Positions 88 to 17,455 of a stretch of DNA of 17,455 nt are shown here, piece after piece. Below the pieces are notes generated by a model. That model made no database searches. It saw only the letters and a program-made list of their open reading frames with translations, and was not told the DNA's origin. The first letter of the stretch is position 1; each line of letters starts with the position of its first letter. The stretch is from positions 1 to 17,455 of the forward strand of contig JAHIUL010000111.1 of assembly GCA_018817195.1 (NCBI GenBank), in the 5' to 3' direction. This DNA comes from Candidatus Margulisiibacteriota bacterium (lineage in GTDB: Bacteria > Margulisbacteria > WOR-1 > O2-12-FULL-45-9). Made by a program: the position numbers and the translations under genes.

Positions 88-133
88 ATCCGGACATTTT
101 CATTTTGCTAAGATCCGGACATTTTCACTTTGC
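88..133 (+). repeat. Two 21-bp direct repeats, 25-bp period
   Basis: Positions 88-108 and 113-133 share the core ATCCGGACATTTTCA and end TTTGC, differing at one base (T versus C). A 4-bp spacer separates them. They lie directly after the transposase-like reading frame, so terminal transposase-binding repeats of an insertion sequence are the simplest reading. The repetition is seen directly; the role is inferred. Confidence 0.85.
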
Positions 134-153
134 CTTGACACTATATCCTTTTC

Positions 154-183
154 TTGACATTAAAGCTCATCGCGGTATATCAT
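154..183 (+). promoter_or_regulatory. Promoter of the beta-barrel/mini-helix operon
   Basis: A perfect -35 TTGACA lies at 154-159. Two overlapping -10 candidates follow: TATATC at 176-181 (16-bp spacer) and TATCAT at 178-183 (18-bp spacer). Either puts the transcription start within a few bases of the ATGs at 188 and 191, and no Shine-Dalgarno is present, so the mRNA may be leaderless. Another TTGACA at 135-140 belongs to the IS-like end and has no good -10 partner. Confidence 0.5.
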
Positions 184-187
184 CATT

Positions 188-772
188 ATGATGAAACTTC
201 TCGTCAAAGCTCTGATTTTAATCATATTCTGCAGCCCGGCCCTGGCCCGGCCATTTGATTATTATTTAAGCCTTGGCCCTGAATACTGGTCAATTACCAG
301 CCATAAGGACAACACCGATTCTCATCTGCTTACTGGCGGATTTATGTTTCGCGGGAATCTATTTTCAAAAGTAAATGCAGAGTTCAGGGGCGGCACCGGC
401 GAAATCTCAACGACCAGAATCTCATTTAATGAGATTTCCCTGCTCTATAACGCAATTTATACGCCAACCTACTATCTTGGCTACGGCATCTCTTACCTTA
501 CATATAATAATATACTTAACAAAGCCAGCAACACCGCTATTAACCAGAGCGAGCTTAATGCTAAAATCCAATGGCAGCAGAGCTTTAGCGAACTCTGGGG
601 TTTTTATCTAAAACTGGTTGGGCCAAACACGATTGGTTATGACCTGGGCTGGATTGCTTACTTTGATAAAGATTTAGGTGATTTTAACCTGCATGCTGGC
701 TATAAAAATGTAAGTTTAGCTGGTAACAGCTCCATGCACGGCGCCTACATCGCTTCTGAGGTATATTTTTGA
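188..772 (+). CDS. Small outer-membrane beta-barrel protein, first gene of the envelope operon
   Basis: The product is 194 residues (193 if the second ATG at 191 is used). It has a Sec signal peptide of about 20 residues ending SPALA and then alternating polar/hydrophobic strands rich in Tyr, Gly and Asn. It ends in EVYF; a C-terminal Phe with aromatic residues before it is the usual BAM recognition signal of outer-membrane barrels. The size fits an 8-strand barrel of the OmpW/OprF type, though no family signature was recognised. The TGA overlaps the ATG of the next gene (TGATG at 770-774), so translation is probably coupled. No ribosome-binding site precedes either ATG. The barrel fold is well supported; whether it is a pore, anchor or receptor is unknown. 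Confidence 0.75.
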   Translation: MMKLLVKALILIIFCSPALARPFDYYLSLGPEYWSITSHKDNTDSHLLTGGFMFRGNLFSKVNAEFRGGTGEISTTRISFNEISLLYNAIYTPTYYLGYGISYLTYNNILNKASNTAINQSELNAKIQWQQSFSELWGFYLKLVGPNTIGYDLGWIAYFDKDLGDFNLHAGYKNVSLAGNSSMHGAYIASEVYF

Positions 773-1092
773 TGTTTATAAAAAGTATTGCCTTAATATT
801 ATTTATTAGTATTTTGACTGTTTCTGTCTGCCAAGCTGATTCTTTAGTTATCACCCGGGAAAGCTGGTCAAAGGACATTACGCTTAAAGGGGAAAAGGAT
901 AATCCAGTTGTATTGTCCCCTATTCCAAAGCTTACGCTCTCCGGCCAGACAAGCAAAGTAGTTGTTCTGCCTGAAGAATTGACAATGAAAGATGAAATTG
1001 CCGAATTCAGGCTTTTTCGCAACCGCTATGTAATATTCGGCGTCTATTTATTTACGTCTTTATATTATAATTGGTTAACCAGGCACAGATAA
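772..1092 (+). CDS. Short exported protein with C-terminal TM helix, degenerate paralog of the next three
   Basis: I use the ATG at 772, which overlaps the upstream TGA, rather than the TTG at 769; this gives 106 residues. There is a signal peptide (about 1-22, ending VCQA) and a short polar segment beginning with an ITRESWSK motif. The C-terminal block has the pattern EhxxFRxxRY followed by a hydrophobic helix with tyrosines and a basic tail (TRHR). That block matches the C-termini of the three downstream products. The middle is much shorter than theirs and lacks the VPEG-type turn, so it looks like a reduced paralog. The predicted topology is a periplasmic domain with a single inner-membrane anchor. 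Function unknown. The next gene starts after 1 bp. Confidence 0.72.
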   Translation: MFIKSIALILFISILTVSVCQADSLVITRESWSKDITLKGEKDNPVVLSPIPKLTLSGQTSKVVVLPEELTMKDEIAEFRLFRNRYVIFGVYLFTSLYYNWLTRHR

Positions 1093-1093
1093 A

Positions 1094-1510
1094 ATGATAA
1101 AACAAATTTGCTTAACACTTATCATAGCACTGCTGGTCCAGTTATCACCCCTGGCCCACGCCAGGAGCCTGACTGAAAATGAAACTTGGTCTGGTAAAAT
1201 CAAACTCATCGAAGATATTTATGTGCCGGAAGAATTTACCCTGACAATTTCGCCTGATACTCAAGTAGTTACTAACGGCAACAAAATAATTTCTTATGGC
1301 ACCGTCAATATCCAGGGCCAAGAAGATAAAAAAGTAAAAATCCTGTCCAACCCTCCCTTAAGCCAGCAGAACCTGGCCGTGTTAAAAATGAAACCTTATG
1401 ACATTAATACTGAAATACTGAAAGAGGAATTCAACGCATTTAAAATCCAGTATGCTATACTGTGGTCTGTTCTTTTTGCCGGTATGTTTATTATGGTTGA
1501 GGCGCGTTAA
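1094..1510 (+). CDS. Exported mini beta-helix protein with C-terminal membrane anchor, paralog A
   Basis: The product is 138 residues: a signal peptide ending AHA (about 1-23), then a beta-rich region with TWSGKIKL, a VPEEFTLTISPDT segment and GTVNIQGQEDKKVKIL. This W-S-G / VPE-x-x-T-L-x-I-x-P-x-T layout resembles the N-terminal cap and first coils of right-handed parallel beta-helix surface proteins. The C-terminus carries EILKEEFNAFKIQY followed by a roughly 18-residue hydrophobic helix ending EAR. Signal peptide plus C-terminal helix predicts a bitopic protein with the beta domain outside the inner membrane. It overlaps the next gene by 1 bp (TAATG). The fold is inferred from pattern only; function unknown. 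Confidence 0.75.
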   Translation: MIKQICLTLIIALLVQLSPLAHARSLTENETWSGKIKLIEDIYVPEEFTLTISPDTQVVTNGNKIISYGTVNIQGQEDKKVKILSNPPLSQQNLAVLKMKPYDINTEILKEEFNAFKIQYAILWSVLFAGMFIMVEAR

Positions 1511-1977
1511 TGAGAAATATATGTCTATTATTAATCACTGTTCTGCTCATTGAAATCCCTGCCATTGGCACAACTTCCCCACAAGTCTTATCAGGTAAAG
1601 AGGTTGTCTGGTCAGGAGAGATTGAGTTAAAAAACGACGTTGTTGTCCCAGAGGGAACCACATTAAAAATCACACCAGGCTCAAAAATTTACGGGTCCTA
1701 TGAGCAAGCTGACGGAACCGTCTCACCTAAAGAATGGAAGATCATTGTCAAAGGCAGCCTAATTGCGGAGGATACTTTAATTGATCCCATGCCCCACGGC
1801 TTATCAGCCATTCGCATTCCTATCGATTCAAACATCCAAAGCATTAAAATCGCGCCCATGAAAATTGAGACCCAGAAGATCAAAGACGAATTTGCTGTTT
1901 TTAGGACTCAATATGTAGTCTTGTGGGCCCTGCTCTTTGGCAGTATCTACTATGCTATTAAAGCGAGGAAAGAATAG
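1510..1977 (+). CDS. Exported mini beta-helix protein with C-terminal membrane anchor, paralog B
   Basis: The product is 155 residues. It has a hydrophobic signal sequence (about 1-20) and the clearest beta-helix cap of the set: VWSGEIEL, then VVVPEGTTLKITPGSKIYG, then IIVKGSLIAEDTLI. The C-terminal block is IKDEFAVFRTQYVVLWALL followed by the rest of the hydrophobic helix and a basic KARKE tail, consistent with the positive-inside rule. The ATG at 1510 shares one base with the upstream stop, so translational coupling is likely; there is no separate Shine-Dalgarno. It is a clear paralog of its neighbours. No enzymatic motif is visible. It could be a scaffold or the periplasmic arm of an envelope complex, but that is conjecture. 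Confidence 0.75.
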   Translation: MRNICLLLITVLLIEIPAIGTTSPQVLSGKEVVWSGEIELKNDVVVPEGTTLKITPGSKIYGSYEQADGTVSPKEWKIIVKGSLIAEDTLIDPMPHGLSAIRIPIDSNIQSIKIAPMKIETQKIKDEFAVFRTQYVVLWALLFGSIYYAIKARKE

Positions 1978-1979
1978 CT

Positions 1980-2459
1980 GTGCTTAAACATTTGAGAAAT
2001 TTAATCATTTACCTGTTAGTTGTTTCCCTCCCAATGGTTTGTTTAACCAGCAAAGCCAGCGCCCAAACCAAGTGGCCAAAATATGTTGATCTTGAGCAGG
2101 AAACAACTATTGAGCAAAATAAGACTATTAATGTCATGCCTGGCTCTGAAATAAAGTTTTCCAACACAAAAAGCAAGCTTAATGTCCTTGGCCAGTTAAA
2201 CATTAAAGGCAGCGAGAAACAACCCGTGACAATAATTATTCCCAACGCAGTTAAACAAGCTTCTCCTATTTTAATTCAAGATAAAACACTGCTAGAAACT
2301 GATGACAAATTAAAGGAACTGGAAATTTATCCCTATCAAGTTGATACTGATGAAATCGTGGAGGAGCTCCGGGCTTTCCGCTACCAATATGCCTTTGTTT
2401 GGACAGTCTTAATGGGGATCTGTTTCTATCTGGTCCTCAACCGCACCGAGTATTGGTAA
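1980..2459 (+). CDS. Exported mini beta-helix protein with C-terminal membrane anchor, paralog C
   Basis: The product is 159 residues with a GTG start at 1980, 2 bp after the upstream stop; no ATG is available at the N-terminus. The signal peptide ends ASA (about 1-28). The beta domain contains INVMPGSEIKF and LNVLGQLNIKGSEKQPVTI, again the beta-helix cap layout. The C-terminal block is EIVEELRAFRYQYAFVW plus a hydrophobic helix and a short NRTEYW tail. Its last 51 bp overlap the 3' end of the convergent larE gene, and no terminator fits between them. Membership of the paralog family is clear from the C-terminal motif; function unknown. Confidence 0.74.
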   Translation: MLKHLRNLIIYLLVVSLPMVCLTSKASAQTKWPKYVDLEQETTIEQNKTINVMPGSEIKFSNTKSKLNVLGQLNIKGSEKQPVTIIIPNAVKQASPILIQDKTLLETDDKLKELEIYPYQVDTDEIVEELRAFRYQYAFVWTVLMGICFYLVLNRTEYW

Positions 2460-3245
2460 GTTCATGCTGCCGCTCTGAAAACCTTTGAGATCAATTGTTA
2501 CGTAAAGATAGCCTAAATCTTCAAACTTTTTAGAAATTTTATCCATCAACCCATCTTGCAATAATTTAACAATTGACTCTTTATCAAGTTCAATACGCAC
2601 AATTGAATCATGATGCCTAACTCGCAACTGTTTAAAACCCAAGGACTTGAGAAATTTCTCTCCTTGCTCAACTTTTTGCAAAATCTCCTGGGTGATCCTT
2701 GTGCCATACGGAATCCTTGAAGCTAAACAAGCATAAGAAGGCTTGTCCCAGGTAGGCAGGTTCAATTCTTTTGAGTATTTCCTAATATCTTCTTTTGTAA
2801 AGCCTAACTCCATCAGAGGACTTCTGACCCCAAGCTCCTTTTTGGCTTGCGTGCCAGGCCGATAATCTGACATATCACCAAAATTTGAGCCATCTAGAAC
2901 ATAAGGGATATTATTGTCTTTAGCAATTTGCAGAAGCTTAGAAAACAGCTCTTTTTTGCAAAAATAACACCGTTCTTTGGGGTTACTAACGAAGTTTTCA
3001 TCGGAGAATTCATCAGTTTGGATCAATTTCCGCTTAACACCCAACGCTTCGCACATCGCTTCCGCAACCCGCACTTCGTTCTCAGGATAAGTTGGTGATT
3101 GAGCAATTACGGCAAGGACATTATCATCAAGAGTATCTTTGGCAACTTTAATAAGAAAGGTACTGTCAACACCGCCAGAAAAGGCGATAAGGACGGTACC
3201 CATTTGTTTAAGGAGATTTTTGAGATCTTTTAGCTTTGATGCCAT
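2409..3245 (-). CDS. larE: LarE-family ATP-dependent sulfur transferase (PP-loop)
   Basis: The product is 278 residues, close to the 276 or so of Lactobacillus LarE. The PP-loop SGGVDS (23-28) adenylates the substrate, pyridinium-3,5-biscarboxylic acid mononucleotide in known LarE, where sulfur is then inserted to build the nickel-pincer cofactor. Three cysteines stand out: the ERCYFCK pair (C93, C96) and C173 in PSYACLASR. The last matches the sacrificial cysteine of the Lactobacillus enzyme, and a three-Cys set is typical of LarE forms reported to carry a [4Fe-4S] cluster. The GSMN motif (about 259-262) marks the usual C-terminus; the last 16 residues are encoded in the overlap with the convergent gene. 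larB, larC and larA are not in the window, so another tRNA- or cofactor-thiolation role is possible. Confidence 0.8.
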   Translation of the reverse strand: MASKLKDLKNLLKQMGTVLIAFSGGVDSTFLIKVAKDTLDDNVLAVIAQSPTYPENEVRVAEAMCEALGVKRKLIQTDEFSDENFVSNPKERCYFCKKELFSKLLQIAKDNNIPYVLDGSNFGDMSDYRPGTQAKKELGVRSPLMELGFTKEDIRKYSKELNLPTWDKPSYACLASRIPYGTRITQEILQKVEQGEKFLKSLGFKQLRVRHHDSIVRIELDKESIVKLLQDGLMDKISKKFEDLGYLYVTIDLKGFQSGSMNLPILGAVEDQIETDPH

Positions 3246-3289: not shown

Positions 3290-3748
3290 TTAACCTTCAA
3301 CTATATAATACTTGATCTGGCGCCTGCCAAACTTTAGGGCGCCTGAGTAGGTCCTCATCCAAATGTCAATCCGATTAGTATACCTGCGGTTCATGCGGTC
3401 TTCCACAATAAATACGCGGTTGCCAAAGCCTTCAATCATGACCTTGGTGCCTAAAGGCAGGAAGTTAGCGGCAATTACGCCTTCTCGGCAGCGGGTGCCG
3501 GAAGCTGTAATCCAGGGGGTATCATCACACTGCCAAACCATGGAGTTATAAGCTGTGGCAGTCACCCTGCCCCAACCCAGTATCTTATACTTGGTCAGCC
3601 TTGATTCCCTGCCAGAAGAACTGACTGAAACCAAAAAGGCAAGCAGCAAAATCACACCAACAGTCCTCAGGGAAACCCCTAATTTATGTTGATTTCTTTT
3701 ACTATTAAACCATCTTTTTATACGAGTCTTTAAATTTGGGTTGCTCAT
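3290..3748 (-). CDS. Membrane-anchored 3D-domain protein (MltA/RlpA-like double-psi barrel)
   Basis: The product is 152 residues: a basic cytoplasmic N-terminus (1-25), one transmembrane helix (about 27-44), then a 3D domain. The name refers to conserved aspartates, seen here in CDDTPWITASG (D75/D76), VEDRMN (D117) and RIDIWM (D128); ATAYN opens the domain. In known proteins this barrel acts on peptidoglycan (MltA-type lytic transglycosylase, Rpf/YabE-like, YuiC). C74 and C87 could form a disulfide. The helix could be an uncleaved anchor or a signal sequence. A strong site (AAAGGAGGG) lies 6 nt before the ATG. It ends 44 bp before larE, which has its own promoter. Confidence 0.82.
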   Translation of the reverse strand: MSNPNLKTRIKRWFNSKRNQHKLGVSLRTVGVILLLAFLVSVSSSGRESRLTKYKILGWGRVTATAYNSMVWQCDDTPWITASGTRCREGVIAANFLPLGTKVMIEGFGNRVFIVEDRMNRRYTNRIDIWMRTYSGALKFGRRQIKYYIVEG

Positions 3749-10457: not shown

Positions 10458-10835
10458 TCAATAACTGGCGTAGTTTTTGTTATTGATGAATATTCGACCC
10501 CTTATTCTATCATAATACCAGCCCCTTGAAACAGCGGCTGGCTCAGCAGAACCAACTTGGACAGCATTGCTGTTGCTGATCGGCTCAACCGGGATCCTGG
10601 CATTTTCAAACATTGAGGCTTCAATGCTTGGTGGGAAAGCAGGATATATCCCCCTGGCTGAATTATTGGCATACTGGATAGCAATAGCCGCCCGCATATC
10701 ATCCAATACACCTCTGGCGGCGTTAATATTAACCTGATTAGAAAGATCCATGAAGCGAGGCAAGGTAACAGCTATCAAAACCCCAACAGCCAGCAAAATA
10801 AGCGATAGTTCAACTAAATTCAGACCTTTTTTCAT
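10458..10835 (-). CDS. Type IV pilin-like / type II secretion pseudopilin
   Basis: The product is 125 residues. The N-terminus has the prepilin pattern KKG followed by LNLVELSLILLAVGVLIAV: cleavage after Gly4, Glu at mature position 5 and a long hydrophobic helix. The rest is a short soluble domain ending in RGRIFINNKNYASY. The size and short head domain fit a minor pilin or pseudopilin. No assembly ATPase, platform protein or peptidase gene is nearby, so it is an orphan here. Its promoter is 9 nt before the ATG, and it probably shares a transcript with thiGHSF. Confidence 0.85.
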   Translation of the reverse strand: MKKGLNLVELSLILLAVGVLIAVTLPRFMDLSNQVNINAARGVLDDMRAAIAIQYANNSARGIYPAFPPSIEASMFENARIPVEPISNSNAVQVGSAEPAAVSRGWYYDRIRGRIFINNKNYASY

Positions 10836-13993: not shown

Positions 13994-15418
13994 TTAGAAG
14001 TTATACATTAACCCTAAGGCTGCTATGTCTGATGTATCTTTGTTCTCCTGGTCTTTATAAACGCGATATGTAGCATCCAAACTTGTGTTTGGAGCGATGG
14101 CGTATGAAATGCCGCCTTCAGCAGTCAGCCTGCTTAAGGTTGATTCAAAATCATACAAACCATTTAATCTGATATCGCCCTTACCAACCAACTTGATATC
14201 ATCAGATACTGTCTGAACAACTGTACCGCCAATGTTAACTGTGTTGTTAATCAATGGGCGCATAAAGTTATCATAACCAGCATAGTCAAATTCTTCAGCA
14301 GCATATTCTGTGCTGATGAACTTTGAGCCAACTTTTGACACCTGGATTGTCGCAACAGTACCAGTGTCTAAAATATCGTCCAAAGCCAATGCTCCAGCAA
14401 TCATCATATTGCTTGAGCCATCAGTTCCGCCAACACCAAGCTTTGCGCTTGCTTCAATCTTATCGGTAAGAGGAGCAGAAACTCCAACAATACCCCTAAG
14501 ATCTCTGGTCTCAGTTGAGAACTGACCAGCGCTGAAGTAGTCACCAGTTACGTCAAGCTTCATGGTGTTAACCATTGGCACACCTGAGAAAGCATAACCG
14601 ATTTTACCGGTGATCTGGTTTGACTGAACCCTTCCAGAAGCAGGATGTTGTTTGGCTTTATAGCGGCCATAAACATCAGCACCACCCATATTGGTAGATG
14701 CCGCGATATAAGTGCCAGGGCGCACATAAGTTACGCCAATTTCACTTGGAATTGTTCCAGCTGGATCAGCTGAATGCTGCTTTGAGCCAGGACCCACGGC
14801 CAGTTCCAATTTGACAGGATCAGCAAGACCCATTGCTGACAGGTTAACCGGAACTGATGACACTATGTCAATCAGGTCAGTGGCTAACGCCCCGCCAGTT
14901 GAGTTAGATCCGTCATCCATGAAACCATAGTCCATGGTATCCAAGTTGATAGCAACTTCAGCTCCGCCGCCCATATCTTGAACAGTGGTAAGTTGAAGTC
15001 TGTAGCTAGCAACAGCTCCGCGGATTCCGCCCTTTTCAGCCAAAAGATTGCCGAACATCCAGCTAGCTTTATAGCTGCCCATTAAAGGCAAGCCAGCGCC
15101 AGAAGGTGATCTTCTGCTCTTTAGAGCAGCAACGTCCTTCTTCAATGCATCGATGTCAGAAGAAACGTTTGTTGCGGCGCCAACGGCTTTGGCTAATTTG
15201 GAAAGAAATACAGCGGTTTCGTACCTGGTAATCTGCTTGGTACCGCGGAAAGTTCCATCAGGATATCCGTTGGTAACGCCAAGCTTTACCAGATCATAAA
15301 CTGCAGAAGCTGCCCAGTGACTCTCAGGAACATCCTTGAATTTCATCTGAGCAGATGCAGAGGTAGCAATTGCAAAAGTAACTGCAAAAGCCACGAACAA
15401 TACTAAAAATTTCTTCAT
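13994..15418 (-). CDS. SLH-domain outer-membrane porin (major)
   Basis: The product is 474 residues: a signal peptide (1-23, ending ASA), one SLH domain (about 26-78: FKDVPESHWA, NGYPDGTFRGTKQITRYE), a short coiled coil (about 84-103), then a long beta-barrel ending LGLMYNF with terminal Phe. In Cyanobacteria and Negativicutes such porins sit in the outer membrane while the SLH domain grips pyruvylated or polyamine-modified peptidoglycan. It has its own strong promoter, a leader of about 210 nt, a GGAGG site before the ATG and a strong terminator, suggesting high expression. It is a full-length paralog of the porin upstream. Confidence 0.9.
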   Translation of the reverse strand: MKKFLVLFVAFAVTFAIATSASAQMKFKDVPESHWAASAVYDLVKLGVTNGYPDGTFRGTKQITRYETAVFLSKLAKAVGAATNVSSDIDALKKDVAALKSRRSPSGAGLPLMGSYKASWMFGNLLAEKGGIRGAVASYRLQLTTVQDMGGGAEVAINLDTMDYGFMDDGSNSTGGALATDLIDIVSSVPVNLSAMGLADPVKLELAVGPGSKQHSADPAGTIPSEIGVTYVRPGTYIAASTNMGGADVYGRYKAKQHPASGRVQSNQITGKIGYAFSGVPMVNTMKLDVTGDYFSAGQFSTETRDLRGIVGVSAPLTDKIEASAKLGVGGTDGSSNMMIAGALALDDILDTGTVATIQVSKVGSKFISTEYAAEEFDYAGYDNFMRPLINNTVNIGGTVVQTVSDDIKLVGKGDIRLNGLYDFESTLSRLTAEGGISYAIAPNTSLDATYRVYKDQENKDTSDIAALGLMYNF

Positions 15419-15674: not shown

Positions 15675-17036
15675 TTAAAAAGAGGTGCTGATTTTAACCC
15701 CAAACAGGTCAGAAAAAGCAGGCACAGGGTCAGCAAACTGGGCAATCTCGCTGGGCACATTATAAGCCCGGTAAAACACTTCAACGGCTATTGTCGACGA
15801 AAGTTTATAGTTCAGGCCAAGCTGCCAGAGAAAGTATGTTTCTGGATAAGCTGCCCCGTAGCGGTAGCAGCCGTCAGTCACATAGTCCCCTTTCCATTGA
15901 AGAGAAAGATCATCAAATATTTTCTGGTCAATTCTTAGGCCGATATCAACCATTCCATCCAAAATTAAGCGGTCAAAATTATTAAGATAAATAAATTCAT
16001 ATTCATCCAAATAATTATCACGATATTTACTTCCCACCTTGTCAAACCGCGCAACAATGTTTGTCCCTGTTTGCCAGGGGTCGTTAATTTCTTTAATTAA
16101 TTTAAGATACATGCCGCTTGTGCCGTCCCGGGGCGAACCAACTCCTAAAAGGACCTTAATCTTATACTTTTTGACCGGCTCGCAATCCACTCCTAACTCA
16201 GCCAAAAAATCATGCGGACCGTCTATTTCAAAAAGATAACGCGGCCTAAAATTAACGCTTGCAAAACCATAATTGTATTCAATATTTGTTGTTAATTCAT
16301 GAACACCGATTTTGCCGGAAGTCTGCACCTGACGTGTTACATAAGATCCCGACCAGCTTAATTTGCCGATTTTTCTGGAAACCTCAACAGCAGTTTTTGG
16401 CCGGATATAAATGGTATAGTTCTCACTGGGAAAAATGCCTTCAGAATCTACGTGGGGAACAACCCCAGGGCCAAGATTCACTTTATAATAATAAGCGCCA
16501 ATTTTAAATTTACCTTCAACATCAATTAACTTGGTGGCAAAAGGCCGATCAGAGCTACTGTTAAATCCGGCATCAACTGTATCAAGCGTAATTTTAAGGT
16601 TTGAATCATAATCAAAATCCCTTAGCATGCTAAGTTTTAATCGATAATCAAACTTGCCGCCGCGGTTAACTGTAGGAGAAACAATTGCCCCTGATTCAAC
16701 CTTGCCGTAAAACTTAACTTTTCTGTCAATTTCATTCTGTTCAAATTTGATAACAGCAACCTCATTTTTTAATTCGCTAAGTAATTTTTCTTCGACAGCA
16801 TCTCCTTCATTCAGATAGCGAGAAAGCTTTGATAAAAATGAGGCGATTTCGTAGCGGGAAACTTCACGGGTTCCTTGGAAAGTTCCGTCTGGATAGCCGC
16901 CGGTAACCCCCATCCTAACTAAATCATATACTGAGTCATAAGCCCAGTGCCCCTTTGGAACATCATTAAAACCAATGCCAGCAAAGCCGGCGCAGGCCAG
17001 CCAGATTATAAAACTAAAGGTAAGAAGATATTTCAT
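15675..17036 (-). CDS. SLH-domain outer-membrane porin (second, diverged paralog)
   Basis: The product is 453 residues from ATG 17036 (a TTG at 17048 would add four residues before the signal peptide). The order is signal peptide (about 1-20), SLH domain (about 21-74: FNDVPKGHWAYDSVYDLV, GGYPDGTFQGT), a charged coiled coil (about 78-105) and a beta-barrel ending GVKISTSF. Landmarks shared with the next porin include LDTVDAGF versus LDTMDYGF, YIRP versus YVRP and KVGSKY versus KVGSKF, so the two are paralogs along their whole length. The start overlaps the glycosyltransferase end by 23 bp with only a weak ribosome site, suggesting coupled, lower expression. Confidence 0.88.
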   Translation of the reverse strand: MKYLLTFSFIIWLACAGFAGIGFNDVPKGHWAYDSVYDLVRMGVTGGYPDGTFQGTREVSRYEIASFLSKLSRYLNEGDAVEEKLLSELKNEVAVIKFEQNEIDRKVKFYGKVESGAIVSPTVNRGGKFDYRLKLSMLRDFDYDSNLKITLDTVDAGFNSSSDRPFATKLIDVEGKFKIGAYYYKVNLGPGVVPHVDSEGIFPSENYTIYIRPKTAVEVSRKIGKLSWSGSYVTRQVQTSGKIGVHELTTNIEYNYGFASVNFRPRYLFEIDGPHDFLAELGVDCEPVKKYKIKVLLGVGSPRDGTSGMYLKLIKEINDPWQTGTNIVARFDKVGSKYRDNYLDEYEFIYLNNFDRLILDGMVDIGLRIDQKIFDDLSLQWKGDYVTDGCYRYGAAYPETYFLWQLGLNYKLSSTIAVEVFYRAYNVPSEIAQFADPVPAFSDLFGVKISTSF

Positions 17037-17455
17037 GCGCAATCTCAACTGCCGCCTTAGGGCGGCTGACCCGTTTAATATTTTTCTTCAATTCTTCAAA
17101 TTCCGATGTTTCTCTTAATTCTTTCACAATAGCAGCAACTTTCTTGGGGTCCTTGCTCACCCGGCCGACATTTTCCCTGACCACAAACTCAACATTCCCC
17201 TCTTCTTGCCCGGGCAGCCAGGAAGTAATAATAATAGGCAAATTCATGGCCATGGCTTCAGCAATTGTGCCGGGTCCGGCTTTGGTAATAATAAGATCTG
17301 ATTCTGCCATGATGTCGTGAACTTTATCCGTAAAACCATGGACAACAATCGGGAGACTAAATTTGTTTACACTCTTTTTCAATCTTATTTCCAGGCTCTT
17401 ATTGCGGCCGGCGATTACCACTAATTGAGCCTTAATTTTTTGATTGTCTAATTCT
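17014..17455 (-). CDS. GT28-family diacylglycerol glycosyltransferase (MGDG synthase/MurG-like), C-terminal part
   Basis: The frame is open to the right edge, so only the last 147 or so residues are present. They form the nucleotide-sugar-binding half of a GT-B enzyme: VVIAGRN, VHGFTDKVHDIMAESDLIITKAGPGTIAEA, then PIIITSWLPGQEEGNVEFV. The KAGPGT...EA and PGQEEGNV motifs are those of monogalactosyl/glucosyl-diacylglycerol synthases, closer than MurG proper. It probably transfers a hexose to diacylglycerol at the inner membrane. A GTG at 17421 is only an internal codon. Its end overlaps the second porin gene, so both are in one transcript. Confidence 0.87.
   Translation of the reverse strand, partial: ELDNQKIKAQLVVIAGRNKSLEIRLKKSVNKFSLPIVVHGFTDKVHDIMAESDLIITKAGPGTIAEAMAMNLPIIITSWLPGQEEGNVEFVVRENVGRVSKDPKKVAAIVKELRETSEFEELKKNIKRVSRPKAAVEIAHEISSYL

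Follow-up and report, generated by a model that had tools for sequence, protein, structure and literature searches.

The TamA/TamB and AsmA-like bridges combine an outer-membrane barrel with a beta-rich periplasmic protein anchored in the inner membrane, TamB-like proteins being long and anchored at the N-terminus. Ten-stranded outer-membrane barrels are exemplified by the omptin/OpcA fold, the active site of omptins consisting of a catalytic Asp/His set, and Wza is the precedent for a helical pore in the outer membrane. To our knowledge, few trans-envelope systems are known outside the Proteobacteria and Bacteroidota. The Margulisbacteria, which are close to the Cyanobacteria, represent a lineage that matters for the evolution of two-membrane envelopes.

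OmpM-type SLH porins are reported to be tethers of the outer membrane (PMC10628300). The cassette described here likewise contains an outer-membrane barrel with a candidate inward link, but this barrel lacks an SLH domain (Pfam), while SLH domains were detected in two other proteins of the window, by which we mean the whole stretch analyzed (17,455 nt of contig JAHIUL010000111.1, Candidatus Margulisiibacteriota bacterium, GCA_018817195.1). The candidate link would, moreover, go to putative inner-membrane proteins and not to peptidoglycan.

Cassette Organization

Five genes on the forward strand (188-2459) encode one outer-membrane barrel and four paralogs (table 1). The composition given in the original prediction, a barrel accompanied by paralogous proteins with a signal peptide and a C-terminal helix, holds, and the tight packing is real, with junctions measured at -1 to +2 bp. 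Across the ten cassettes identified in this study, 39 of 42 junctions fall between -11 and +9 bp; for several genes of the distant cassettes we selected the start codon ourselves. The three outliers comprise +35 in G002, where the gene may start earlier, -44 in G051, whose start codon is uncertain, and +230 upstream of the barrel gene of G040.

The promoter-like sequence directly upstream of the barrel gene is the best-scoring site in 3.3 kb, over which 11 sites were found and 8.4 expected, indicating no overall excess. The four other loci of the same cassette type (L041-L044) have TTGACA-17-TAxxxT, with boxes read by eye, ending 7-9 nt before the barrel ATG, and across all five loci the last base of the predicted promoter lies 4-9 nt upstream of this codon. 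At so short a distance the transcript should be nearly leaderless.

Table 1. Features of the cassette and its flanks (window positions unless a locus is named)
Feature	Position	Strand	Description
Paired repeat with CCGGACATT, outside cassette	88..127	+	15-mer twice without mismatch (88-102, 113-127)
Sigma-70-like promoter (predicted)	154..183	+	TTGACA-18-TATCAT, 11/12 consensus matches; directly 5' of barrel ATG
Gene 1, outer-membrane beta-barrel	188..772	+	194 aa, signal peptide, C-terminal Phe
Gene 2 (class 1)	772..1092	+	Signal peptide, short beta segment without beta-helix cap, C-terminal helix, end NWLTRHR
Gene 2 C-terminal helix, conserved	985..1089	+	
Gene 3 (class 2)	1094..1510	+	Signal peptide, beta-helix cap, C-terminal helix, end EAR
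Gene 3 C-terminal helix, conserved	1409..1507	+	
Gene 4 (class 3)	1510..1977	+	Signal peptide, predicted small beta-solenoid, predicted C-terminal helix 121-154
Gene 4 C-terminal helix, conserved	1870..1974	+	
Gene 5 (class 4)	1980..2459	+	Signal peptide, degenerate beta-helix part, C-terminal helix, end LNRTEYW
Gene 5 C-terminal helix, conserved	2346..2456	+	
larE, ATP-dependent sacrificial sulfur transferase; flank, outside cassette	2409..3245	-	TIGR00268, 338.6 bits, cut-off 150
TTGAC-N7-GTCAA-like palindrome (candidate operator)	L041:228, L042:9284, L043:5196, L044:6917, L106:157, L095:4025, L096:4091, L097:5076		

Distribution and Cassette Types

Among 74 genomes of the phylum (Margulisbacteria/Saganbacteria), that of the window (G000) included, nine carry cassettes, ten in total: G000, G002, G007, G008 (with two cassettes), G020, G025, G040, G051, and G058. 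The genomes are 55-100% complete and absences are therefore approximate. Five cassettes belong to a main type with the order barrel, class 1, class 2, class 3, class 4 (G000, G002, G007, the first of G008, and G020), so that the conserved synteny in relatives for which the original prediction proposed to search is present, four other genomes sharing all five genes and their order. The other five cassettes are variants with four to six paralogs. Three of them have four or five paralogs followed by a different candidate barrel (the second of G008, G040, and G058), and two have no adjacent barrel (G025 with four paralogs and G051 with six).

A search with gene 4 in 57 genomes (that of the window included) matched 24 at E ≤ 0.1, eight of which carry a cassette; the matches in the other 16 are weak (E 0.0027 or worse) and lie mostly within long frames. 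The sequence at a weak gene-4 match in G042 (locus L040) was inspected and contains no cassette. A profile search of all 74 genomes matched 19, nine of them with a cassette. Ten profile-matching genomes (E ≤ 0.01) were counted as cassette-free, their matches being limited to the beta part (positions 1-95) and lying in frames of 265-1179 aa; matches past position 95 (the helix part) are confined to cassettes. Orthologs of gene 2 among contigs of 84,980 species were found at four loci, all titled Margulisiibacteriota or Saganbacteria, and protein searches returned 11, 5, and 14 proteins (the window's own protein in the first and third), with Margulisbacteria, Saganbacteria, or “bacterium” as the named organisms. 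Because the protein and contig searches rely on exact words, distant kin in other lineages are possible. The cassette has been seen so far only in one little-known bacterial phylum.

A Paralog Family United by Its C-terminal Helix

Used as a query against its own genome, gene 4 recovers gene 3 (E 1e-13), gene 5 (1e-10), and gene 2 (0.015) and nothing else at E ≤ 10, and gene 2 matches a profile of 38 family members (the paralogs of its own genome included) with an E value of 1.1e-19. The family finally comprised 44 paralogs, with 38 in the set used for the profile and the Pfam scan. Its members are united by a C-terminal helix with a one-sided stripe, E-[F/I/L]-xx-[F/Y]-[R/K]-xx-Y-xxx-W, which is their best conserved part. 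Between main-type genomes this helix is 65-78% identical, compared with 39-53% for the periplasmic part, and is the more conserved of the two in all four classes; in gene 2 from five genomes the values are 78% and 45%, and the gap is smallest in gene 4 (65 vs. 53). In 28 divergent rows (24 paralogs outside the main type plus the four of the window) the information peaks at E(-8), F(-7), F/Y(-4), R/K(-3), Y(0), and W(+4), the aromatic, basic, and Tyr columns being favored by construction because the pattern by which all but nine hand-set anchors of the 44 were positioned contains these residues; E(-8) and W(+4) are not so favored in the pattern-set rows. The one-sided moment at 100 degrees was reached by 181 of 20000 shuffles and is slightly higher at 90-95 degrees.

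Class-specific tails are kept to the last residues (NWLTRxR in class 1, EAR in class 2, and N[RK]xxYW in class 4). Within the last eight residues, K or R is present in all 20 main-type tails and in 16 of 24 others, the remaining eight having neither, and the net charge is positive in 14 of 20 and 15 of 24 tails, respectively. Close to the C-terminus, the best 19-residue stretches show moderate hydrophobicity and low hydrophobic moments (0.02-0.28); in the A class and the gene-2 class, some C-terminal segments seem so short or polar that a single membrane span is hard to assign with confidence. We infer from these sequences that the paralog helix would cross the inner membrane and end in the cytoplasm, aided by packing with its neighbors.

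The original prediction had made the beta-helix the defining part of the paralogs and placed its cap in three of the four; the cap proved clear only in genes 3 and 4, and many family members, down to 70 aa, do without the beta-helix. Nine members of 70-96 aa have no cap, about half of the 44 have no recognizable one, and gene 5 of G007 has lost it. Every one of the ten cassettes has one to three subunits carrying a recognizable cap, two class-1 pattern matches (W_1 and G007_1) having been discarded as spurious. On these counts the beta part is dispensable. For gene 4, an AlphaFold2 model of moderate confidence (pLDDT 74, pTM 0.44; block means 92-93 over residues 131-150) predicts strands between residues 31 and 114, forming a beta-solenoid, followed by one unbroken helix. 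This solenoid model, at a pTM of 0.44, has no significant match among known folds.

For all 20 main-type paralogs, the four best matches in other genomes are the proteins at the same position. The class-1 model fits one member best in the second cassette of G008 and in G025 (by under 2 bits), G051, and G058, and is the best fit to no member of G040. From these fits, the cassettes seem to draw on a common set of subunit classes, with weaker indications for the most distant members, six of which (G051_B, G051_C, G040_A, G040_B, G058_A, and G058_E) match none of the class models well (E 0.03 or worse) and were assigned from their position and from the helix motif as judged by eye.

Main-Type and Variant Barrels

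Gene 1 would be one residue shorter (193 aa) if the ATG at 191 is its start; after the signal peptide it has about 174 residues with short loops, and the structural model predicts a ten-stranded outer-membrane barrel. The main-type barrel is present in 5 of the 74 genomes, always inside a cassette, and the same five genomes carry a strong match to gene 2 (class 1); the weak gene-2 matches in two more genomes (G025 and G058) belong to variant cassettes. Homology between the main-type barrel and the candidate barrels of the variants is not demonstrable, hhalign giving a probability of 10% over the first 35 columns only, most of which belong to the signal peptide and the remainder to the residues that directly follow. 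The label “barrel” in the variants consequently rests on length, signal peptide, C-terminal aromatic residue, and position.

An Accessory Cassette between larE and iscR

The main-type cassette sits between larE and iscR, and the same genes adjoin in cassette-free relatives; this type of cassette is accessory. For these comparisons iscR (Rrf2 type), iscS, and iscU were named by eye and larE outside the window by similarity. Among nine cassette-free relatives with larE (G001, G004, G005, G006, G009, G010, G013, G021, and G023), its neighbor is iscS in five and iscR-iscS in three, and in G023 larE and the isc genes are separated by a single gene with a 3D-like domain; no larE was detected in G003, G040, G051, and G058. 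In the window, a membrane-anchored protein with a 3D-like domain (3290-3748, reverse strand; Pfam 3D below the cut-off) adjoins larE, and similar genes, read by eye, are also neighbors of larE in several relatives. A single contig carries both flanks in G007 (where it includes only the start of iscR), in G008 (whose second cassette lies on the larE side), and in G020 (with space for one small gene before iscR). For G000 and G002, the cassette contig carries one flank, and the other is near the head of a different contig. The G025 cassette is not beside its larE. The second cassette of G008 overlaps the end of larE on the same strand; at this locus (L035:7957-10753) larE, five small paralogs, and the different candidate barrel lie on one strand, convergent with the main-type cassette.

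The 15-mer of the CCGGACATT pair recurs once in the window with two mismatches (at 10594), 0.04 matches being expected with up to two mismatches. A similar CCGGACATT pair is found at the head of the iscR contig of the same genome (C47; L106:1-191, the window side being 88-156), and a 16-bp flank is common to both contig ends in the orientation expected of one split intergenic stretch. The CCGGACATT pair is probably the end of an insertion sequence separating the cassette from iscR at the contig end and, given the paired repeats and the common flank, such an element may account for the contig break in G000. A palindrome near TTGAC-N7-GTCAA precedes the Rrf2/IscR-type gene heading iscS-iscU with and without the cassette, and this candidate operator is for that reason assigned to iscR.

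LarE identity is 74-76% among G000, G002, and G007 and 55-59% to G020, a gap that has no counterpart in the cassette proteins; the LarE of G008 is itself divergent (50-58%). Lateral transfer between families is possible on these identities. We claim no functional link between the cassette and sulfur metabolism. Elsewhere in the window, 13994-15418 and 15675-17048 (both reverse strand) encode two neighboring SLH-domain proteins (Pfam SLH), the first with NCBIfam por_somb below its cut-off, which are probably barrels of the OmpM/cyanobacterial-porin kind, and 10458-10835 (reverse strand) encodes a small protein whose N-terminus, read by eye, is type IV prepilin-like.

A Putative Envelope Complex and Alternative Readings

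We place at about even the chance that the cassette encodes an obligate, accessory hetero-oligomeric complex of the cell envelope, which would probably be of a kind not described before. An obligate assembly is suggested by genes that nearly overlap and, in the main type, by a barrel and paralogs that occur in exactly the same genomes. A fixed set of different subunits, each keeping its own conserved helix, together with the overlapping genes and co-inheritance of the barrel, favors the hetero-oligomer that was proposed originally. Against such a complex stand the two of ten cassettes that have no adjacent barrel and the variation in paralog number from four to six. The lack of demonstrable homology between main-type and variant barrels, the short or polar C-terminal segments, the eight tails with neither K nor R, the moderate confidence of the solenoid model, and the distant paralogs that match none of the four class models also count against it.

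In this complex the paralogs would lie in the inner membrane with an N-out/C-in topology, and their helices, only moderately hydrophobic when alone, would pack as one pseudo-symmetric bundle via the E-F-Y-W stripe, with a separate slot for each subunit. On the periplasmic side of this bundle, the subunits with a beta-solenoid would form a short stalk or cap, with the outer-membrane barrel as a partner at the far side. We infer the contact with the barrel, the spanning of both membranes, and the biochemical role; the whole would most likely be a passive bridge or conduit between the membranes, since family searches of genes 1-5 found no ATPase, motor, or enzyme domain. A fuller picture, which we regard as doubtful, is a previously undescribed two-membrane machine of the Margulisbacteria in which four to six different, pseudo-symmetric inner-membrane subunits are bundled by the helix stripe, a mosaic periplasmic beta-solenoid stands on them and a dedicated barrel is docked, with the main type as an exchangeable module at larE-iscR.

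The C-terminal helix might instead be a disposable sorting tag of the exosortase/PEP-CTERM type, the paralogs then being separate surface proteins without a joint complex. Their layout of signal peptide, variable domain, motif, hydrophobic helix, and often basic end resembles such tags, but Exosortase_EpsH (PF09721) was detected at E ≤ 0.001 in none of 20 genomes (9 with and 11 without the cassette), which are 71-100% complete, so that a single absence is not proof; in a control set of 14 genomes only Methanocaldococcus jannaschii matched. A discarded tag would not need the tails that main-type paralogs of classes 1, 2, and 4 preserve to their ends, and with helix-part matches restricted to cassettes we consider this reading extremely improbable. 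By analogy with Wza, several aromatic-rich, moderately hydrophobic C-terminal helices per cassette and an outer-membrane barrel as companion could also indicate a helical pore in the outer membrane, around or beside the barrel. This is very unlikely given that the low moments of the best 19-mers are unlike those of an amphipathic pore helix and that the K or R near the end of every main-type tail fits a stop-transfer helix of the inner membrane.

Other readings concern the periplasmic parts and the patchiness of the cassette. Beta-helices can stack, and the caps and the solenoid-like model of gene 4 would be compatible with solenoids stacked end to end into a filament or surface fiber, its subunits freed from the membrane; this has little probability, however, as many subunits have no recognizable solenoid, the cap is lost in gene 5 of G007, and it is the membrane helix that is best conserved. 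A conflict module, in which membrane-active proteins are exported through the barrel or phage entry is blocked at the envelope, would suit the occurrence in 9 of 74 genomes, the presence/absence at one locus, where G008 also has its second cassette with a different candidate barrel, and the faster change of the periplasmic parts. Genes 1-5 nevertheless have no match in PADLOC or meaningful match in PHROGs, gene 4 has no relatives among the phages and plasmids searched, the gene-2 alignment matches none of the viral contigs, and keeping four to six different subunits exceeds the needs of a toxin, leaving this reading unlikely. A hetero-oligomeric envelope complex is the reading that we prefer.

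Comparison with Known Systems

The original prediction knew of no described system with this composition, and no convincing match was found in the family libraries searched (Pfam, NCBIfam, PHROGs, and PADLOC), genes 1-5 giving only stray matches (E above 0.08) against these libraries and PDB sequences. In Pfam, gene 1 has no family at E ≤ 1, genes 2-4 have no match, gene 5 has one stray match (DASH_Dad3, E 0.088), and a single stray match was found in 1 of 38 paralogs (Sar8_2, E 0.0062). Family scans gave only two stray matches (E 0.03) for ten main-type barrel sequences and none for the three variant barrels, and the gene-4 profile matches no PDB sequence at E ≤ 10. PADLOC matched none of the five proteins, although a new system would escape such a search. 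A literature search, in sources available in part, found no paper on the cassette proteins. No known family or system among those tested fits the cassette. As a small, optional, and self-contained unit, a barrel with four paralogs in a fixed subunit code would offer a compact model of how paralogs become an obligate hetero-oligomer, and the helix signature is a concrete handle for finding the cassette and testing its assembly.

The cassette nonetheless shares elements with several described groups. The rung motif W-x-G...VPxGxTLxIxPG of genes 3 and 4 is like that of secreted beta-helix proteins and seems to recur in long proteins of the relatives, where weak matches, confined to the beta part, lie mainly within open frames of 240-1416 aa. 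The paralogs have no right-handed beta-helix family match in Pfam or the PDB and differ from generic proteins of that kind in having one short putative solenoid followed by a membrane helix. Gene 1, modeled as ten-stranded, resembles the omptin/OpcA fold in its predicted strand number, yet is only 8-12% identical without a sequence match, and no His is among the invariant or nearly invariant columns of ten gene-1 orthologs, indicating that the omptin active site is absent. Neither genes 1-5 nor the 38 paralogs have a Pfam match of TamB/AsmA type. The cassette is like the TamA/TamB and AsmA-like bridges in combining a barrel with putative inner-membrane-anchored, beta-rich periplasmic proteins, and differs from TamB-like proteins in being built of several tiny proteins with the anchor at the C-terminus.
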